DNA from: an uncultured Flavobacteriales bacterium
Lineage (GTDB): Bacteria > Bacteroidota > Bacteroidia > Flavobacteriales_D > Sanyastnellaceae
Assembly (NCBI GenBank): GCA_905478325.1
Contig: CAJQIB010000019.1
Location: 1-44,117, forward strand
Length of the DNA stretch: 44,117 nt
Direction: 5' to 3'
Positions 23,491-44,117 of this stretch are shown here, piece by piece (positions within the stretch are counted from its first letter, which is position 1; every line of letters starts with the position of its first letter). The notes under the pieces are model-generated. The model worked only from the letters and a program-made list of their open reading frames with translations, was not told the origin of the DNA and ran no database searches. The position numbers were made by a program, and so were the translations under genes.

Positions 23491-26412
23491 TTATTGAATG
23501 TTCAGGCGACCGGAATACGATACGATGTGATCACCTGAGAGCGTATAGATATACGAGCCAGACTTCAAATCACCTCGTGCTATGATGTGGGTATTGCCGG
23601 TAGCAATCTCCTCCCGCACGAGACGACCTGACGCGTCCGTAATCCGCAACACCAAATCTTGTCGGGTGGGGTTATCGAAACGAAGCGTTGCCGATTCCAC
23701 CAATGGATTCGGGTACAACATGGGCGCAGAAGCTTCCATGTTCTGGCTGACTCCACTGGATACCACGCACCCGTTTTCAATCACGTGCAATGTGTTGTGG
23801 TATTCTGGGTTGACCACATCCGTGATCAAGTCGATGCACACCTCGTCTTCAATCGAAGTCCAGTACAAGCGCAAGAACGGCACGTAGTCATAGTGCTTTG
23901 GAAAGCTCATGTTGGTGTATGACAACCCAATGACCTCGACGCCTCCAGGCATGAATTCCGGAGTGATCGGGAAGTCGATGGGATCTGCAATGCTATACGC
24001 TGAAGCGATTCCCATACCGCTCATTGAGAGCTGATAACCCACAATGCGGTTGTTGGGGTTCAATACGTGGATGTCCAGGTATTGCTCTGTCCAGTTCACC
24101 GCACCGATGGTGAAGTGCACCGTATCAAATGGGTTGACGATGTGGTTGACCGGGAAGTTGCACTTATCATGAAACCCGGAGCTATCGGGATGCTGGTGCG
24201 CCGTGTTGAAATATTGGCATTGAGCCAAATACGCAGCGTCAGCTACCGTGATGTCACCGTCCTGATCCACATCCGTACAAGGCAATGGTTCGATGTCGTC
24301 ACCGAGAATGTGCTCGACATAGCTAACCGCATCAGCATACTCTTGAGCGCCGTTGGCATCCAAATCACCCATCAGCGCCGAACCGTTGCAATCGCCGTTG
24401 CAATCCATCGTCGCCAATCCAAACATCTCTCCTGTGCAGTCCACGTATTCTTCGCAGTCGTCATACTGCTCTAGCAACAACTCGCCGCTGCTACGGTCCA
24501 AGCCGATGCATACCACCGCCCAGTTGTTGTCGTAATTTGTTTCGTAATGTCCCAAGGCATCGGGAGCACCGTCCCAATTGACCCGCACAACCAATTGGTA
24601 TTGGCCGTCTGGGATACCGGTTACATCAACCCATTGGCAGGATAAACCGGAACCATAAATGTCACCGCAATGCGCTGAGATCCCCATGGTAGAGCATCCG
24701 TATTGGGCCGTTCCGCCATCGCTGCACTCCAAGTCCATCACACAGAATCCGTTTTTAAACCCAATGGGCAGCGACTCTCCGTCCATGGTGAACATCGTGT
24801 ATTCCGCATACCCATCATAATGCCAGTGGTTGTGGCAATCGCCCCACTCAAATTGTTGGGTGCCTGAATTGTTGGACGTTTGACCAATGTAGTAGTCGAT
24901 ATCCCCGATGTTTTTGATGTGGGTGGTGAATCGGATCAATTCACGCGTGCCGTAGCCATTGAGGCAGCCTTCGACGATGTAACAATCCGACTCCGCGACT
25001 TCCATAGTGGACGCATACAGACTGCTGGTGATCGCCGATTCCAAGACCAATAAATCCGGTCCTGTACACAAAGGATCACCTGGATACAAGCAATCTCCGC
25101 TGTCCACTTCTGCAAACGGACTGAAGTTGCAAGCCGTCTCATCCATGCATCCCGTGGGAGGGCCTACAAAGTCAAATTCCCAATCGAAGCCCGCTGAACA
25201 CGGACCGGTCATCGTTTCTACCTGCAATTCCAAATCAAAACTAATGTCCGAACTGGTCGTGTTGATTTGATGGATTTCCACCGCCACTACGTTGGTTCCA
25301 TTGAGTAAATTCAATGCAACAGGATACTCATTGAGGAGCGTTTCATTGTTGCCTGTCATTTCTGCAGAGGCGAGCGTATTGGCAGCGATCGGGCCATCCG
25401 GCATGTTGCTTCGTTGGATCTCTTGCCCATTCAAATACACCACCGCACCATCGTCGCGACGCAAGCGCAAAAGGCCATTCAAGTTGCTGTCCGACTCACC
25501 ATCGTATTCAAACGCGTGGCGGAAGTAGGTTGTGGTGTGCTTATTGGAGGCATCATCGCCGTAGCTCACGACCGTGGCCTCATCCCCATCTCCATAGCCC
25601 AATTCAGCATTGCCTGAAGCCCAGCTCGCGTCATCGAAATCACTCGCCAACCAGCTTGTACCCAAGTCTTCTCCCGAGTCCAAATACTTCCAATTGGATT
25701 CCAATCCCACGAGTCCGTCGTATTCCGCGTTGCCCAATCCCATTCGGATCCAATACGACACTCCGCCTTCCAGCAACACCGTCAAATTGGCTTGTTCGCC
25801 ACATCCGCCCTCTTCATCATCATAGTAAATGGACCCTTCGTTGGTATTGTCAAAGTTGCCCATGTTACAGTAATCATAGACCCACAAGCGCGTATCGCAT
25901 TCGACATCGCAAGTGGACATCAAGTACATGCCGTTGGCTGGAGGCGTAAACAGGTACCAGGCGTTGCTCGCATCTTGCGCGATCGTACCGTAATCTTCAT
26001 CGGACAGATCCAACGCATCATTGCAGGTAGCTCCCGGTGAACAGTTGAAACTGATGGACTCCCCGTAACCGTAACTCCCACCTGAGGCAATCTCTACGCC
26101 ATTCTCATAAATCCAGTAGCCTCCTGGGTCAAAAATTCCATCTCCGTATGAATCGTACGCACTGAAGACAAAACAAGGGTCCTCAATGGACGCATCAAAA
26201 CAAATGGTATCGCCCACAGAACCGCCTTCAGCCAGGAGATTGCCTTCGTATTCCAAGGTCCAAGAAATCTCATTGGGGTAGCCATCGGCTACAATCAAGA
26301 CTTCAATCGTTGTCTCACCCTCGGCACATTGCGCAGAGAGATTCGAAACTCCCAAAGAAAACGCGCAAACGAAAAAAGTAAGGGCGAGAAAAGAAAAGCG
26401 ACGATTTGGCAT
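23491..26412 (-). CDS. Secreted lysyl-oxidase-domain protein with type A T9SS sorting domain
   Basis: 973 residues from ATG 26412 (ATG 26430 also possible); signal peptide ends at SNLSAQC. Domains: an N-terminal module with DSYGDG (about 30-120), a PPC-like domain (about 125-225), a galactose-binding-like jelly roll with RLRRDDGAVVYLNGQEI (about 235-400), one GC...GDC mini-repeat, a lysyl oxidase domain (about 450-640), a dockerin-like Ca-binding segment (GDLDANGAQEYAD, DVDQDGDITVADA), and a type A sorting domain. In the lysyl oxidase part WGDCHNHWHYDGY supplies copper ligands His527, His529 and His531. Lys553 (FKNGFC) and Tyr586 (DIYGSGLSCQW) match the two residues that form the LTQ cofactor in human LOX. 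It could oxidise lysine side chains of extracellular proteins; the substrate is unknown. Confidence 0.9.
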   Translation of the reverse strand: MPNRRFSFLALTFFVCAFSLGVSNLSAQCAEGETTIEVLIVADGYPNEISWTLEYEGNLLAEGGSVGDTICFDASIEDPCFVFSAYDSYGDGIFDPGGYWIYENGVEIASGGSYGYGESISFNCSPGATCNDALDLSDEDYGTIAQDASNAWYLFTPPANGMYLMSTCDVECDTRLWVYDYCNMGNFDNTNEGSIYYDDEEGGCGEQANLTVLLEGGVSYWIRMGLGNAEYDGLVGLESNWKYLDSGEDLGTSWLASDFDDASWASGNAELGYGDGDEATVVSYGDDASNKHTTTYFRHAFEYDGESDSNLNGLLRLRRDDGAVVYLNGQEIQRSNMPDGPIAANTLASAEMTGNNETLLNEYPVALNLLNGTNVVAVEIHQINTTSSDISFDLELQVETMTGPCSAGFDWEFDFVGPPTGCMDETACNFSPFAEVDSGDCLYPGDPLCTGPDLLVLESAITSSLYASTMEVAESDCYIVEGCLNGYGTRELIRFTTHIKNIGDIDYYIGQTSNNSGTQQFEWGDCHNHWHYDGYAEYTMFTMDGESLPIGFKNGFCVMDLECSDGGTAQYGCSTMGISAHCGDIYGSGLSCQWVDVTGIPDGQYQLVVRVNWDGAPDALGHYETNYDNNWAVVCIGLDRSSGELLLEQYDDCEEYVDCTGEMFGLATMDCNGDCNGSALMGDLDANGAQEYADAVSYVEHILGDDIEPLPCTDVDQDGDITVADAAYLAQCQYFNTAHQHPDSSGFHDKCNFPVNHIVNPFDTVHFTIGAVNWTEQYLDIHVLNPNNRIVGYQLSMSGMGIASAYSIADPIDFPITPEFMPGGVEVIGLSYTNMSFPKHYDYVPFLRLYWTSIEDEVCIDLITDVVNPEYHNTLHVIENGCVVSSGVSQNMEASAPMLYPNPLVESATLRFDNPTRQDLVLRITDASGRLVREEIATGNTHIIARGDLKSGSYIYTLSGDHIVSYSGRLNIQ

Positions 26413-26529
26413 AATGGCTTCAATTTGCATGAAAGAACACAGGTGTCGGCAAGATACAACAACCTGTTGCAGTGGTAACTCAAGCTGGCACAATAGGGTT
26501 GCATAGCCTGATTAAACTAAAAATAGTCC

Positions 26530-37123: not shown

Positions 37124-39985
37124 TCAATTGCAATCAGTTCCGAATACGGACAAGAAGGAAAGCAAGTCAGGTGTTGCCACCAAACCGTCACCATCCAAAT
37201 CACCAGGACACGCATTGTCCACAAATTCACAACTTCCATCGTCTGTGTTTGCTGCAGCAGTATAGTTCTCTGCTGACTCATACATGCAACCGAATACCAC
37301 TGATGTCATACAAGATCCATCGTCTTCGGTAGCATACAAGTCAAACTCAGCAAAGAATGGATCCATACAACCCAAGATTGGGCAAGTCGCAACGCAGCTT
37401 CCTGCGCAGTATGCAACAACCAATCCTTCAGCCGCTGTAGCCCCGTAGTTTCCACCACCCGCTCCGATCGGAGCTTCGGGATTGGTAGAGCACTCAGCTG
37501 GTGCATTGAATACAGAGCCCCAACCAGAATATCCATCTAGAGGACCGGTTACAGCAATGACGAATTCAAATGCAGCGCCTTCTTCAAGAGCCAAAGTTCC
37601 AGACCATACACCGTCGCCGTCAGCATCCGCAAGGGTCACACCCCAGCCGCCCCAGCCGTTCCAAGAACCGTTGACAACAACGTTGTCGAAGTCTGCGTTC
37701 GGGTAGCCCGTTCCGTTCATATCAATGTCAAACATGACATCAACAATCGCAGGTGGATTCACTTCATCACACGTCAAACACGTGCCATACGCATCGTTGT
37801 TCGTTGAACCTGCGTCAGTCAGTCGATTCGCATAACCTGCGAAATCAGTCACTGGAGCACACTCGCCACCGTTTTGCATGTCGTCCACCAAATCCTCTTG
37901 GTGAGCCCATCCATCAACCATGTACTTGTATTCGATCGTTCCAGCCAAGTCAATGGTCAACGAGTGAATGCCATCTCCATCGTCATCAGACAAGAAGTTG
38001 TAATCTTCAGCAGCACACCATCCACACCAAGGACCCGTCACATACACTGTCGTAAACTCAATCCCTGAGCAAGACATGTCCACGTTGAATGTTGTTGAAT
38101 ACAAGCAAGAACCATCGTCAAGGTTCGCCGCTTCGTTGTAGTTGCTCGCTGTTGAGTCCATGCAACCGTATACGTCCCCTTCATTGGTGTCGCATGCACT
38201 GCAAGACTCGAAACAAACCACTTCCAATACCATATCAACGCCGCCTTCAACGGTGATGTAACGGTTGGTGTAAGGGCCTGTTGTCAACGTGCATTCTGCT
38301 GTAAGCTCAGGGTCTAATGATTCCTCAGTACCTGAGTTGACATATTTGAATTCGTGACCGCCTGAAGCCAATACCGTTGTAAACTCATAAATACCATCTC
38401 CGTCTTCGTCGGTCATTGGGGTTGCACCCGCATTCCAGCCGTTCAATGAAGCACCGAAAATCGTCACCGCACCTGTCACACCACTAGTGGACATGTCCAC
38501 TTGGAATGTAACGGACGCTTCAGAAACAGAACTGCAAGACCCGTCTGTTGAGCACTGTGCAAAGCACGTGTTGATCGTCGTAGGACCTTCGATAGCGGGT
38601 AAGAAACGGTCATTGTAGTTCGCTGCATCTCCGCACTCCTGGCCTGCCAAGTTCTCTTTGCAAGACCAATCACCGCAAGCACCATTGGTGAACGCGTAGT
38701 GGCCTGCAAACCCTTCGTCCAACATCATGCTAATCGCATAGACGCCATCACCATCGTCGTCCATCATTTGATTGTCACCCGGTACGCCAAAATATGCACC
38801 ACCTGCGAGGTAAACTCCGGTTTCTGCAACTTCTTCGTTGGCCATATTCACCATAAACGTGACTTCGTGTTGAACGACTTCCGTGTCGCACCCAACGCAA
38901 GCAGCGTAACAAACAGCGTCCACGACTACGTCAACCACACCGACTTCAACCGATCGGTTGAAGAATTCAGCCGTGCCACAAGCGGCAGGAACATTTTCTA
39001 CAAAATCCCACCCTGGTCCGTTCATGTACTTGAACTGCACCGTGCTGTTCGCAGGAACCGAATGCGTGTAAGAGAACACACCGTCTCCGTCTTCGTCAGC
39101 CATTTGAGTAAAGTCCCAAGCGATGAAATCGCCTGCCACAAAGATCCCAGCAGGATTTGCTCCAGCTACATTCATGTCAACATTGAAAGTCAAGTTCACT
39201 GGGTCTTCAGTAACAGGAGAACAAGTCTCACCGCAACCTGAAGGACATAGGTTCACCACATTACCTTCTGCACTTGTAGTAAAGAAAAAATTAGCCGTTC
39301 CTGCCAATGCACAATCGAGGCCGGCATTGTATACAAAGCCCCAACCAGAGTAACCATCTGCCGCGCCCGTTGTAGAAACAACATACTCATATGTCAATCC
39401 TATTTCGAGTGCGATTGTGCCCGTCCAAATGCCATCGGCATCATCGTCAGCCAAAGCAACACCCCAACCTTGCCATCCATTCCAGCTACCATTGACTGCT
39501 ACAGCATCATAATCAGCTGTTGGAAAATCCTGGTAGTTCATGTCAATATTGAACGTTACGTCTGCTGTCTCTACAGGAGGTGGCGCAGAACACGAACCGT
39601 CCGTGGTGCACTGAGCAAAACAGGTGGATATCACTGTGTTTTCCGATATGTCTGAAAGCAATCGATCACTCCATTGTCCATCTGCACAATCCTGTCCTTC
39701 AATATTCTCTTTACACGACCAGTCTCCACAAGCACCATTGGTAAACGTATAGTTTCCTGTGTATGGAGTATTCACTTCAACCGTGATACTATAAATACCA
39801 TCACCGTCCTCATCGAGCATTGGGTTATCACCAGGATTACCCCAGTCAGCTCCTCCTGCGAGATAGACACCTGATTCAGCAACCACTTCATTGGCCATGT
39901 TCAAATTGAACGTAACTGAAGCAGTTTGCGCAAAGGACACTGTTGCAATCGCCAACAGACTAAAGAGTAAATAAACGTTTTTCAT
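37124..39985 (-). CDS. Secreted protein of seven carbohydrate-binding-like (E-set) modules with dockerin-like tail
   Basis: 953 residues from ATG 39985; signal peptide ends at TVSFAQ. Seven modules of 105-120 residues (about 22-133, 140-256, 263-366, 373-484, 490-598, 630-739, 748-868) share VTFNVDM at the start, a GVYLAG or VVNGSWNGW strand, MxDEDGDGIYS, and a closing Cys pair. The pattern resembles CBM48/glycogen-binding E-set domains, so glycan binding is plausible. Modules 1 and 4, and 2 and 7, are near copies. Three GC...DDGSC mini-repeats are interspersed. The protein ends with GDLDGDGLVATPDLL and SFLSVFGTDC, a Ca-loop tail, and has no T9SS domain. The next gene upstream is a sugar transporter. 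Confidence 0.88.
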   Translation of the reverse strand: MKNVYLLFSLLAIATVSFAQTASVTFNLNMANEVVAESGVYLAGGADWGNPGDNPMLDEDGDGIYSITVEVNTPYTGNYTFTNGACGDWSCKENIEGQDCADGQWSDRLLSDISENTVISTCFAQCTTDGSCSAPPPVETADVTFNIDMNYQDFPTADYDAVAVNGSWNGWQGWGVALADDDADGIWTGTIALEIGLTYEYVVSTTGAADGYSGWGFVYNAGLDCALAGTANFFFTTSAEGNVVNLCPSGCGETCSPVTEDPVNLTFNVDMNVAGANPAGIFVAGDFIAWDFTQMADEDGDGVFSYTHSVPANSTVQFKYMNGPGWDFVENVPAACGTAEFFNRSVEVGVVDVVVDAVCYAACVGCDTEVVQHEVTFMVNMANEEVAETGVYLAGGAYFGVPGDNQMMDDDGDGVYAISMMLDEGFAGHYAFTNGACGDWSCKENLAGQECGDAANYNDRFLPAIEGPTTINTCFAQCSTDGSCSSVSEASVTFQVDMSTSGVTGAVTIFGASLNGWNAGATPMTDEDGDGIYEFTTVLASGGHEFKYVNSGTEESLDPELTAECTLTTGPYTNRYITVEGGVDMVLEVVCFESCSACDTNEGDVYGCMDSTASNYNEAANLDDGSCLYSTTFNVDMSCSGIEFTTVYVTGPWCGWCAAEDYNFLSDDDGDGIHSLTIDLAGTIEYKYMVDGWAHQEDLVDDMQNGGECAPVTDFAGYANRLTDAGSTNNDAYGTCLTCDEVNPPAIVDVMFDIDMNGTGYPNADFDNVVVNGSWNGWGGWGVTLADADGDGVWSGTLALEEGAAFEFVIAVTGPLDGYSGWGSVFNAPAECSTNPEAPIGAGGGNYGATAAEGLVVAYCAGSCVATCPILGCMDPFFAEFDLYATEDDGSCMTSVVFGCMYESAENYTAAANTDDGSCEFVDNACPGDLDGDGLVATPDLLSFLSVFGTDCN
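37382..37744 (-). repeat. Module 7 of the seven-module protein, near copy of module 2
   Basis: Partner of the copy at 39218-39568; see there for the shared segments. Confidence 0.8.
38534..38869 (-). repeat. Module 4 of the seven-module protein, near copy of module 1
   Basis: Partner of the copy at 39587-39922; see there for the shared segments. Confidence 0.8.
39218..39568 (-). repeat. Module 2 of the seven-module protein, near copy of module 7
   Basis: Encodes VAVNGSWNGWQGWGVALAD and DGYSGWGFVYNA. Module 7 at 37382-37744 has VVVNGSWNGWGGWGVTLAD and DGYSGWGSVFNA. The tryptophan-rich strand NGSWNGW is where glycan-binding aromatics would sit in CBM48-like folds. Confidence 0.8.
39587..39922 (-). 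repeat. Module 1 of the seven-module protein, near copy of module 4
   Basis: Encodes VTFNLNMANEVVAESGVYLAG and ends CFAQCTTDGSCS. Module 4 at 38534-38869 reads VTFMVNMANEEVAETGVYLAG and ends CFAQCSTDGSCS. Both contain TNGACGDWSCKEN. The identity points to a duplication within the gene. Confidence 0.8.
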
Positions 39986-40053
39986 GAGTAGTTGTTTTCC
40001 GAAAAATTCCACTAAACCGGGTTATTAAGCATTGAAAACCCAAATTCAATCCC

Positions 40054-41573: not shown

Positions 41574-44117
41574 TTATTGGCAAGGATAGCTGTAGGCAGC
41601 TAAGAATTCCAACAAGTCTGCAGAGCCGACCATTCCATTGCCATCTGTGTCAAATGGACAATCGGACTCGCCACTTGGCATTTCGCATGAACCATCATCC
41701 ATGGTCGCATCCGCATTGTAGTTTGGCGCTTCTTCGTACGTGCAACCCATTACATCAAAGACACACGACTCATCATCAACCAAAGCCAAAGGACAGTAGT
41801 TACTCGCCATTTCATCGGTACAACCTGAGAACGTACAGCTTCCATCTTCAAATGAAGCACCCGCGTCATAGTTGGATGCATTGGGGTAAAGACACCCTCC
41901 TGCAATACATGACCCGTCATCAACATTGGCCGAAGGATCATAATTCTCAGCATTCGGATTGGTACACCCTGGATACTCACAAGTGCCATCATCGTCAGTG
42001 GCATCGGCATTGTAATTCGGCGCGTCATCATCCGTGCAACCTGGAATTTCCAACTCATCGCAAATCCCATCGTTGTCGCTATCACTCATACAGTCCCCAT
42101 TGCAATCGTAATACTGCACTGGGAAGTCGCAGGAACCATCGTTGGTATTGGCCGTTGCATCATAATTGCAAGCCGCCTCGTCCGTACAACCCAAGAATTC
42201 ACATGAACCGTCATCATCCGTTGCCGATGCATTATAGTTGTCTGCATCGTCGTTGGTACAACCCGGGATTTCGAGTTCATCACACACACCATCGTTGTCC
42301 GCATCATTCAAACATGCTCCCTCACAATCCAAGTAATCCTCGGCATAGGTACATTCTCCTGATTCAGCTTCCGCTTCCTCATCGTAGTTGCAAGCTGCTG
42401 CATCCGTGCATCCGAAGTTCAAATCAGGGAAGACCAACAACTGGTCCAAAGCCTGAGGGTTGTCCCCATTTTGCGCTCGGTATTGGATGCTGACCTGGAA
42501 GGTCACCTCACCCGTTGTCGTCAATTGAGCAAGCAAGACTTGACCATTTTCATCCGGAAAAGCGGCCGGCTCCATATCTGGCAACACAAACCAGCTCGCA
42601 CCGAGATCATTGTCGACCTGGAAATCGCCTCCGGTAGCAAATACCTGTGCCGCGTCGTCCGTGCCCACCGTTGAAATACTGACTGTATTGTCTTCGCCTC
42701 CGATGGTCATCCAACTATCATACGCAACGTCAGGATCAACCAAGACAGCGGCTGGATTGATTTCACTCGCAAACGTGCCGCCCAATGTATTCTGATAGAA
42801 TGAAGACGAGGAACTTATATCAATGGCGTTTCCTGCTTGAGCAAAGACCGCTGTCATTTGATCCTGAGGATTGTCAAAATTGGCATAGACCCGGAAAGTG
42901 CGCATCCCCTCTTCCGGCATGTTTTCTGAGATCAACTCATACGACAAGCCCGAATAACTCGGCTCGGGATAATCACACGTTCCATCATCCAACGTCGCTG
43001 CTGGATCATAATTGGATGCTGATGCATCCGTACATCCCAAACCGGGCGTCTCTGCCATCGGAAAAGTCAATGGCAATCCAGTAATCTCAACCGACTCATC
43101 CGCTTCATCACGAATCTGAAGGTTGACCAACATGTCCGTCGTGCCATCAGTCGTAATCTGCGCTACCAAAACTTTACCGTCAACAGGCACCGCCTGATCC
43201 GACGATCCTGGGATCAAGTACAGCGACCCTCCTAAGAATGTGTTCACGTTCAGTGCATCGCCTGCTTCAAAAGAAGGGAAGAAAGCATCCATGCCCACAC
43301 TGCCACTTGAATCATCCACACCTGGGGCTGCGCCAAGCGTTACCCATGAGTCAAATTCCAAAGAAGGGAATCCTGCAAAAAACAAGGGGTTGATTCCCGC
43401 AGCTGTTGGACCACCGACAGCATCCTGATAGAAGGAAGTCGAGGGCGTGATTTGCCAAGGCGAAGCCTCGGTGCCATACATCGCAGTGACCTCGATGTCA
43501 TCCGAAGCAAACACGGCATAGACACGGTATGTCGTCATGCCGTCGATACCATCCTCTGCAAACACCTCGTATTCCAAGCCCTGGACCAAGCCATTCAGCC
43601 ATACACAGCTCCCATTGTCCGTCAAAGCCTCGGAGTCGTAGTTGTCGGCAGTTTCTGCCATGCAACCAAAGACTTCCAATTCATCGCAAATGTTGTTGTT
43701 GTTTTCGTCATTGGCACATGAGCCATCGCAATTGAAAAGCTCCTCTGGATAAACACACGAGCCGTCCTCGTCTGTAGCCGACTGGCTGTAGTTGCAGGCC
43801 ATCTCATCCGTACAACCGGGCGTTTCCAAGTCGTCGCAAACTCCATCGCCATCCGTATCACTGAGGCAGACTCCTTCGCAGTCATATCCTGTTTCTGGCA
43901 AGTTCCCGTCGCAATCGCAAGTTCCTGCCACGATGCCATCACCACCACAGACACCACACTCATCAAAACTCGCGCAAGAACCGTCATCGTCCGTTGCCGA
44001 AGTACTGTAGTTACAAGCTGTAACATCCGTACAACCCGCTGTTTCGAATTCATCACAGACGCCGTCATTATCGGCATCATTGAGGCATTGGTCATTGCAG
44101 TCATACCCCGTATTCGG
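41574..44117 (-). CDS. Large extracellular Cys/Asp-rich repeat protein, 5' end cut by window end
   Basis: 847 residues are visible; the frame is open through the right window edge, so the N-terminus and signal peptide are missing. It contains twelve 21-residue mini-repeats of form GCT(D)xxAxNYxxxAxxDDGSC, five linkers such as YDCNGDCMSDSDNDGICDEL with Ca-loop DxDxDG spacing, and two copies of the YRVYA/DSWVTIG module (42477-42950 and 43107-43580). The C-terminus, CPFDTDGNGMVGSADLLEFL with AAYSYPC, matches the dockerin-like tail of the seven-module protein; no T9SS domain follows. Paired Cys and many Asp suggest a disulfide-linked, Ca-binding rod outside the cell. Function unknown. Confidence 0.88.
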   Translation of the reverse strand, partial: PNTGYDCNDQCLNDADNDGVCDEFETAGCTDVTACNYSTSATDDDGSCASFDECGVCGGDGIVAGTCDCDGNLPETGYDCEGVCLSDTDGDGVCDDLETPGCTDEMACNYSQSATDEDGSCVYPEELFNCDGSCANDENNNNICDELEVFGCMAETADNYDSEALTDNGSCVWLNGLVQGLEYEVFAEDGIDGMTTYRVYAVFASDDIEVTAMYGTEASPWQITPSTSFYQDAVGGPTAAGINPLFFAGFPSLEFDSWVTLGAAPGVDDSSGSVGMDAFFPSFEAGDALNVNTFLGGSLYLIPGSSDQAVPVDGKVLVAQITTDGTTDMLVNLQIRDEADESVEITGLPLTFPMAETPGLGCTDASASNYDPAATLDDGTCDYPEPSYSGLSYELISENMPEEGMRTFRVYANFDNPQDQMTAVFAQAGNAIDISSSSSFYQNTLGGTFASEINPAAVLVDPDVAYDSWMTIGGEDNTVSISTVGTDDAAQVFATGGDFQVDNDLGASWFVLPDMEPAAFPDENGQVLLAQLTTTGEVTFQVSIQYRAQNGDNPQALDQLLVFPDLNFGCTDAAACNYDEEAEAESGECTYAEDYLDCEGACLNDADNDGVCDELEIPGCTNDDADNYNASATDDDGSCEFLGCTDEAACNYDATANTNDGSCDFPVQYYDCNGDCMSDSDNDGICDELEIPGCTDDDAPNYNADATDDDGTCEYPGCTNPNAENYDPSANVDDGSCIAGGCLYPNASNYDAGASFEDGSCTFSGCTDEMASNYCPLALVDDESCVFDVMGCTYEEAPNYNADATMDDGSCEMPSGESDCPFDTDGNGMVGSADLLEFLAAYSYPCQ
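41685..42413 (-). repeat. Tandem block of eight GC...NY...DDGSC mini-repeats
   Basis: Within the large repeat protein, eight units follow one another with short spacers or the CxGxCxxDxDNDG linker. Examples: GCTDEAACNYDATANTNDGS, GCTNPNAENYDPSANVDDGS, GCTYEEAPNYNADATMDDGS, each closed by Cys. Four further units lie upstream in the same gene, three in the seven-module protein and one in the lysyl-oxidase protein. Confidence 0.85.

Follow-up and report, generated by a model that had tools for sequence, protein, structure and literature searches.

We report on a 21-residue, cysteine-bounded unit encoded in a stretch of DNA from an uncultured Flavobacteriales bacterium (assembly GCA_905478325.1); this stretch, called the window below, is the entire 44,117-base contig CAJQIB010000019.1 (C19). 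The main unit-bearing frame, 41574-44117 of the minus strand, runs off the contig end and yields an 847-residue piece with 12 units (GCxxxxAxNYx10C), five Cys-Asp linkers (CxxxCxxDxDxDGxCDxxE, one degenerate), one CGVCGGD element, two domains of about 186 residues and a C-terminal tail. A third cysteine, at position 8 of the unit (Cys8, in ACNY), is present in four of the 12. On the same strand, frame 37124-40012 (962 aa) holds three units, one of them the divergent GCMDPFFAEFDLYATEDDGSC, and frame 23494-26511 holds a single unit together with a lysyl-oxidase domain (Pfam PF01186, 102 bits). The twelve, three and single units, the five linkers, the occasional third cysteine and the lysyl-oxidase protein had all been named in the original prediction, made from the letters of the window, and each of them was confirmed; its observation was right, but the scale was understated. 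The features, in the order of translation, are as follows (SWVTIG is the larger domain; T9SS, type IX secretion system).

44043..44099 (-) linker 1, EF-hand-spaced loop CNDQCLNDADNDGVCDEFE
43974..44036 (-) unit 1, Cys8 present, then the CGVCGGD element
43905..43958 (-) second linker type, CGVCGGDG..CDCDG
43824..43880 (-) linker 2, CEGVCLSDTDGDGVCDDLE
43755..43817 (-) unit 2, Cys8 present, then linker 3
43674..43730 (-) linker 3, degenerate, CDGSCANDENNNNICDELE
43605..43667 (-) unit 3, without Cys8, then SWVTIG domain 1
43038..43598 (-) SWVTIG beta-sandwich domain, copy 1, the stretch between units 3 and 4; a near relative in locus L061 aligns with copy 2
42975..43037 (-) unit 4, without Cys8, between both SWVTIG domains
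42414..42974 (-) SWVTIG beta-sandwich domain, copy 2, modelled with AlphaFold (see below)
42351..42413 (-) unit 5, Cys8 present, then linker 4
42270..42326 (-) linker 4, CEGACLNDADNDGVCDELE
42201..42263 (-) unit 6, without Cys8
42129..42191 (-) unit 7, Cys8 present, then linker 5
42048..42104 (-) linker 5, CNGDCMSDSDNDGICDELE
41979..42041 (-) unit 8, without Cys8
41907..41969 (-) unit 9, without Cys8
41835..41897 (-) unit 10, without Cys8
41763..41825 (-) unit 11, without Cys8, odd Cys at position 11
41685..41747 (-) unit 12, without Cys8, precedes the C-terminal tail
41577..41660 (-) C-terminal dockerin-like tail CPFDTDGNGMVGSADLLEFLAAYSYPCQ, ends at the stop
38105..38167 (-) unit, 962-aa protein
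37310..37372 (-) divergent unit, 962-aa protein
37229..37291 (-) unit, 962-aa protein
37127..37210 (-) C-terminal dockerin-like tail, 962-aa protein
25090..25152 (-) unit with Cys8, lysyl-oxidase protein
23524-23718 (-) T9SS type A domain ending the lysyl-oxidase protein

The strict unit pattern occurs 13 times and the linker pattern five times in the window, and neither was found in any of 200 dinucleotide-preserving shuffles. The whole 847-aa protein has 195 matches in its own genome, and 294 units were counted in 40 own-genome stretches plus the window, with 43 unit-bearing frames in those stretches (the unit patterns vary slightly between counts, the own set giving 294, 303 and 298). Contigs C15, C35 and C38 of this assembly each consist of a single unit-bearing frame open at both ends, and C19 breaks inside one; because contigs end inside such frames, the true copy number is probably above the count. 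Among 233 distinct units Ala7 and Asn9 are each present in 99%, Ala14 in 94%, Asp18 in 83% and Cys8 in 65%, while positions 5, 6 and 11-13 vary freely; as Gly1, Cys2 and Cys21 were prescribed by the search pattern, which also restricts positions 7, 9 (N, D or E) and 10, only the other positions count as free evidence. Alignment A1 was built on 19 of the 67 stretches found, and A2 on 45 of 94 non-redundant units.

A unit-linker-unit profile matched 14 of 198 genomes across the phylum; within the order it matched 111 of 120, among them every one of the 31 sampled from the window's own family. The best 80 contig matches from other records gave 79 loci, of which 76 are named Flavobacteriales, Bacteroidetes or something narrower, two simply "bacterium" and one a Proteobacteria bin. 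No Pfam model fell on the unit at E up to 1 in six unit-bearing proteins, nor any NCBIfam model in two, and none of the papers listed by searches of the open-licence literature aimed at the unit named it, literal motif strings leading to one unrelated paper. The 21-mer is a real, widespread mini-module. It is a building block of many secreted proteins of this marine flavobacterium, with 43 frames in the stretches read, and Flavobacteriales decorate such proteins with a repeat to which neither Pfam nor NCBIfam assigned a model in those scanned.

Where the optional Cys8 is present, an extra cysteine usually stands soon after the unit. This was first noticed in the own genome and was then tested on two sets which had not suggested it, namely the 79 other-record loci and 79 viral loci obtained from the best 80 of 285 IMG/VR stretches. 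When a single rule was applied throughout, counting a Cys that lies no more than 16 residues on, short of the next unit and not directly after a Gly, the extra cysteine followed 197 of 204 units with Cys8 against 34 of 94 without it in the own genome, 791 of 822 against 87 of 426 in the other records, and 84 of 88 against 85 of 648 in the viral loci. Shortening the reach to 10 residues gave 194/203 against 27/94, 741/820 against 74/426 and 80/86 against 83/636, respectively. Concordant units numbered 257 of 298, 1130 of 1248 and 647 of 736, the maxima over 500 within-frame shuffles of the Cys8 label in each set being 225, 920 and 581. Under an earlier version of the rule the other records had given 780 of 822 against 72 of 453, and in 527 of those 780 Cys8 units the next cysteine lies 5 or 9 residues on, which corresponds to a short EYxSC form and to the linker form. 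In the window, by reading, all four Cys8 units precede a Cys-rich element and seven of the eight units without Cys8 do not, the eighth meeting the cysteine of the C-terminal tail. The "sometimes" third cysteine of the original prediction thus stands as regards its presence and is refined in that it is coupled to an extra Cys after the unit. The simplest cause of this coupling would be a disulfide between Cys8 and the downstream cysteine, with Cys2-Cys21 closing every unit; in the best reading of the sequences, Cys2-Cys21 would close a bead and Cys8 would clamp it to the next element. The rule turns sequence data into a disulfide map that is open to testing.

The EF-hand has its ligands at positions 1, 3, 5, 7, 9 and 12, and the linker D-x-D-x-D-G-x-C-D-x-x-E reproduces this spacing, with a cysteine at position 8. 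Acidic ligands of the EF-hand type stand at 1, 3, 5, 9 and 12, together with Gly6; linker 3 of the window departs from this. In alignment A3 (53 rows: the window, 16 of 26 long and 36 of 153 short rows) D37, D45 and E48 are invariant and D39, D41 and G42 reach 90% or more, the pattern used for picking having fixed D45 and limited 37 and 39 to D or N. The Binary_toxB calcium-binding model PF03495 touches the linker in two proteins (0.011 and 4.7e-5, below cut-off), in the 847-aa protein at residues 679-697, and TSP3_bac (PF18884) matches two of 42 arrays from viral contigs. With both families the linker shares a DxDxDGxxDxxE loop, and it differs from them in that each loop has three cysteines (CxxxC before it and one inside) and alternates with the 21-mer. 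These likenesses point to a calcium loop in the linker, which would bind Ca2+.

AlphaFold modelled a unit-linker-unit-unit segment with the 53 rows at a mean pLDDT (predicted local distance difference test) of 96.7 and a pTM (predicted template modelling score) of 0.71. The model holds no helix of four and no strand of three residues, which may be expectable for a disulfide-rich chain. When this model was submitted to Foldseek, three chains were returned, all MPEG-1 (perforin-2), the best being 6u2k with 0.7 A over 25 columns and 56% identity; there were two such chains, E 2.0 and 2.2. MPEG1 was also hit by phmmer with the 847-aa protein against PDB (best E 2.7e-4) and by the A2 unit profile, whose five distinct PDB sequences are all MPEG1 (best E 0.0051, with profile positions 1-21 aligned end to end to residues 332-352 of 6u23). 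A reversed decoy profile made from 24 of the 45 rows of A2 missed MPEG1 and hit only two sequences, both eIF1 (best E 1.6). The hinge of MPEG1 has the 21-residue spacing, Cys2, the Asn9-aromatic pair, Ala14 and DD(G/D)SC of the unit. In the sections of the perforin-2 papers drawn on here, the segment is described as a truncated EGF-like domain between MACPF and P2 and a proposed focal point of rotation (PMC6989145), as a small linker, folded and of postulated EGF-like nature (PMC7593815), and as not resolved in the pore state (PMC9713709).

The perforin-2 (MPEG1) hinge is the only solved relative of the unit that we found, and it supplies an experimental template for the bead. The "truncated EGF-like" hinge (PDB 6u23, 6u2j, 6sb3) shares the 21-residue pattern, and it differs in being a single copy without Cys8 in an animal pore-forming protein, between the MACPF and P2/MABP domains. 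A known repeat of defined structure had been named in the original prediction as something that would speak against it; in part such a relative exists, as the structure of the MPEG1 segment is known. The match suggests that the name "truncated EGF" may cover a different, wider mini-fold. An origin of the unit from a MACPF protein within the order was considered and rejected, MACPF (PF01823) being found in none of the 120 genomes, own included (the control matched in 1 of 14).

We consider it reasonably probable that the 21-mer is a self-contained extracellular mini-module that acts as a connector. Conservation and the confident model suggest a 21-residue bead which would be closed by a Cys2-Cys21 disulfide and held by the conserved Ala7, Asn9, Tyr/Phe10, Ala14 and the DDG(S/T) turn. 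Two kinds of bead would exist: a two-Cys form, concatenated or placed between domains, and a Cys8 form, whose Cys8 would bond the cysteine just past the bead, which belongs either to a short EYxSC end or to a CxGxC..DxDxDGxCDxxE linker, the linker itself being a putative calcium loop of EF-hand spacing with its own cysteines. Beads and calcium loops together would build compact connectors or stalks between the beta domains of secreted proteins that bear a C-terminal T9SS domain or a dockerin-like tail. Directly behind this stand the sequences, their spread, the Cys8 coupling, the confident fold prediction and the perforin-2 hinge match, and from these we infer the disulfides, the calcium binding, the export route and the stalk function. 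The tiny disulfide-closed two-Cys spacer proposed at the outset gains support in this form, as a probable connector in modular secreted proteins.

Several observations weigh against this picture. A nearby cysteine occurs in spite of a missing Cys8 in the 34/94, 87/426 and 85/648 units given above; in the subset of exceptions that was read, many such cysteines open another domain or an undetected unit. An earlier rule, which missed some following units, gave 87 of 90 against 191 of 597 in the viral set. Cys8 is also associated, more weakly, with upstream cysteines (odds ratio 4.1), the coupling counts come from related sequences and hence exceed the number of independent events, and the Cys at position 11 of unit 11 (41763-41825), with no obvious partner, is kept in the near relative L061. 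As for the structure, a pTM of 0.71 is no demonstration of a rigid rod, the best Foldseek E for MPEG1 is as high as 2.0, the third chain superposes at 6.3 A over 35 columns, VIA-align on the array model placed none of three chains at Z 2 or more, and AlphaFold may have met MPEG1 in training.

Other readings of the same features were weighed. The beads could be a binding surface made of repeated, diversifying adhesive units rather than spacers, which would suit the large copy numbers, the free variation at positions 5, 6 and 11-13 and the viral-contig frames with up to about 20 units; as many units stand singly between larger domains (window units 3 and 4) or before the tail, a connector is simpler, and we regard adhesion as their general purpose as unlikely. 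Connector or stalk is the best reading, and long arrays may still bind a ligand. We find it distinctly unlikely that the unit itself is a calcium site, as the original prediction had suggested, with Ca2+ bound by Asn9 and by the acidic DDG in front of the closing Cys. Positions 16 and 17 are often Asp or Glu, Asp18 is found in 83% of the 233 distinct units and Asn9 in 99% (the pattern restricting position 9 to N, D or E), but by reading there is no EF-hand spacing inside the unit; the 1, 3, 5, 7, 9, 12 spacing sits in the linker, as do the weak calcium-loop family matches, including that of PF03495 at 679-697, and two papers on perforin-2 (PMC6989145, PMC9713709) do not use the word "calcium" anywhere in their main text.

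An EGF domain has six cysteines. That the unit is a true, degenerate member of this class is very improbable, given its two cysteines, or three plus one downstream, and given that no EGF model of Pfam reached an E of 1 or better in the six unit-bearing proteins, even if the matching perforin-2 segment is termed truncated EGF-like by its authors (PMC6989145, in the section drawn on here). Least credible of all is a metal or redox centre in place of disulfides: a short motif rich in Cys and Asp might invite it, but leader-like N termini (by eye) and T9SS domains point to an extracellular location, the extra cysteine in the unit is accompanied by an extra one after it, and the matching region of MPEG1 sits in an ectodomain facing the lumen of the endoplasmic reticulum (PMC7593815, in the part drawn on).

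Of the 43 unit-bearing frames of the own genome seven have an open 3' end, and the remaining 36 comprise 30 with the dockerin-like tail, four with a T9SS domain and two with neither. Half of the stretches (20 of 40) had been picked by tail matches; the 20 picked by units have 18 frames with the tail and three without. For the count over the 43 frames 19 of 79 T9SS places were used, those on contigs judged relevant, and 77 places in the own genome lie above the T9SS type A cut-off. The 84 held-out frames divide into 37 with the tail, 28 with an end that a loose pattern scores as T9SS-like, and 19 lacking both. Most unit proteins are closed by either a dockerin-like tail or a T9SS domain.

Searched with one tail, the own genome shows 54 places at E up to 1, in some cases two to a protein. 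Singly or in double form, and bearing a Cys pair of its own, the tail closes 40 frames of the stretches read. A profile of 25 of the 76 tails (A5) has a calcium loop followed by an LL helix, as in dockerins, and retrieves dockerin chains first from PDB (2y3n_B, E 5e-8); the top 10 of its 48 rows are cellulosomal dockerins. Pfam Dockerin_1 matched the tail in one protein at just E 0.57. A dockerin has two tandem loops. Compared with type I and II dockerins the tail is often single-looped, some copies being doubled and many single, and is flanked by its own Cys pair. It may serve in sorting, as a calcium cap or in docking, for which any partner would be conjectural.

The SWVTIG domain (about 186 residues) is present in 43 of 79 related loci and was aligned (A4) from the window and 27 of 78 rows. 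Its AlphaFold model is beta-rich (mean pLDDT 93.7), and its copies in the window protein have no Pfam match at E up to 1e-2, only a weak Invasin_D3 row at 0.15. In VIA-align Als adhesins ranked best (Z 6.3), followed closely by a BBSome subunit, cohesins, ApaG and Cna adhesins; among 50 rows cohesins (2vo8, 6kg8, 5nrk and others) reached 4.6-6.0 and Cna 4.6-5.2, and a Z under 8 may reflect a common arrangement. A sequence search against PDB returned no cohesin, its sole row having E 0.44. A cohesin identity was considered for the domain; with Z up to 6.0 beside 6.3 for Als, the likeness is too weak to name it.

Units also occur, unexpectedly, on viral contigs. The frame met most often there has about 1000 residues, roughly 10 to 20 units and, in most cases, a single linker. 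PF18962 (T9SS type A sorting) matched all 42 arrays scanned at E up to 1e-3 (alignment A6: 42 of 44 non-redundant complete viral frames); its position, displayed for the first array alone, is the C terminus (43.2 bits, cut-off 27). The array cassette lies on the IMG/VR contigs L144-L222 and at L224:10504-15372 and L225:9043-14333. The T4-like capsid gene Gp23 was found in five of 24 IMG/VR records (control 0 of 14 genomes) and the terminase PF03237 in three of these five (control 6 of 14). As the records may be fragments, a missing Gp23 is uninformative, and the other 19 are viral on IMG/VR's word. For each of the two largest records with Gp23, ten flanking frames were scanned and five of these match a PHROG; an endolysin-like gene lies upstream of the array, one small frame away in one and about 2.5 kb away in the other.

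A neighbour of about 350 residues accompanies the array in 58 of the 79 viral loci, and a 93-residue coil (weak holin match, 0.0035) and a thioredoxin-like protein in 43 each. The thioredoxin match in L154 scores 23.3 bits, marginally under the Pfam cut-off of 23.5, and none of the 43 thioredoxin-like neighbours has a CxxC. Among 50,697 cultured phage records, five match the viral array protein, four of these being S-CAM3, and none matches the 365-aa array neighbour, which was likewise absent from the 120 genomes of the order in a search without a positive control. A protein of Synechococcus phage S-CAM3 (L223:3072-4622), annotated as virion structural in one record of this cyanophage, holds two units without Cys8; the unit is therefore not confined to Bacteroidota and their phages.

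Phage-borne T9SS cargo has already been reported: Cryophage encodes endoglucanase, GH39 and PA14 proteins with T9SS type A domains, called a unique occurrence in the section of the paper drawn on here (PMC7468147). The viral arrays resemble these in being phage-encoded proteins with such domains. Instead of three cargo proteins in one phage, they are Cys-unit arrays with the domain in 42 of 42 scanned, and this recurrent cassette is the new addition. It suggests that marine viruses repeatedly carry proteins addressed to the host T9SS. A wider reading, which we offer tentatively and think rather doubtful as a whole, is that the bead is one mobile mini-module which Flavobacteriales surface proteins, T4-like phages and the animal perforin-2 hinge have in common by descent, and that the conserved cassette of marine phages, near an endolysin gene in the two records examined, would send bead arrays via the host T9SS onto the cell surface, together with the partner of about 350 aa (barrel-like by look) and the thioredoxin-like partner that lacks CxxC, either to shield against superinfection or to help in lysing the outer membrane.

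Apart from its units, the 962-aa neighbour in the window (37124-40012) also matches the carbohydrate-binding families AMPK1_CBM (47.9 bits) and CBM_48 (34.2 bits).

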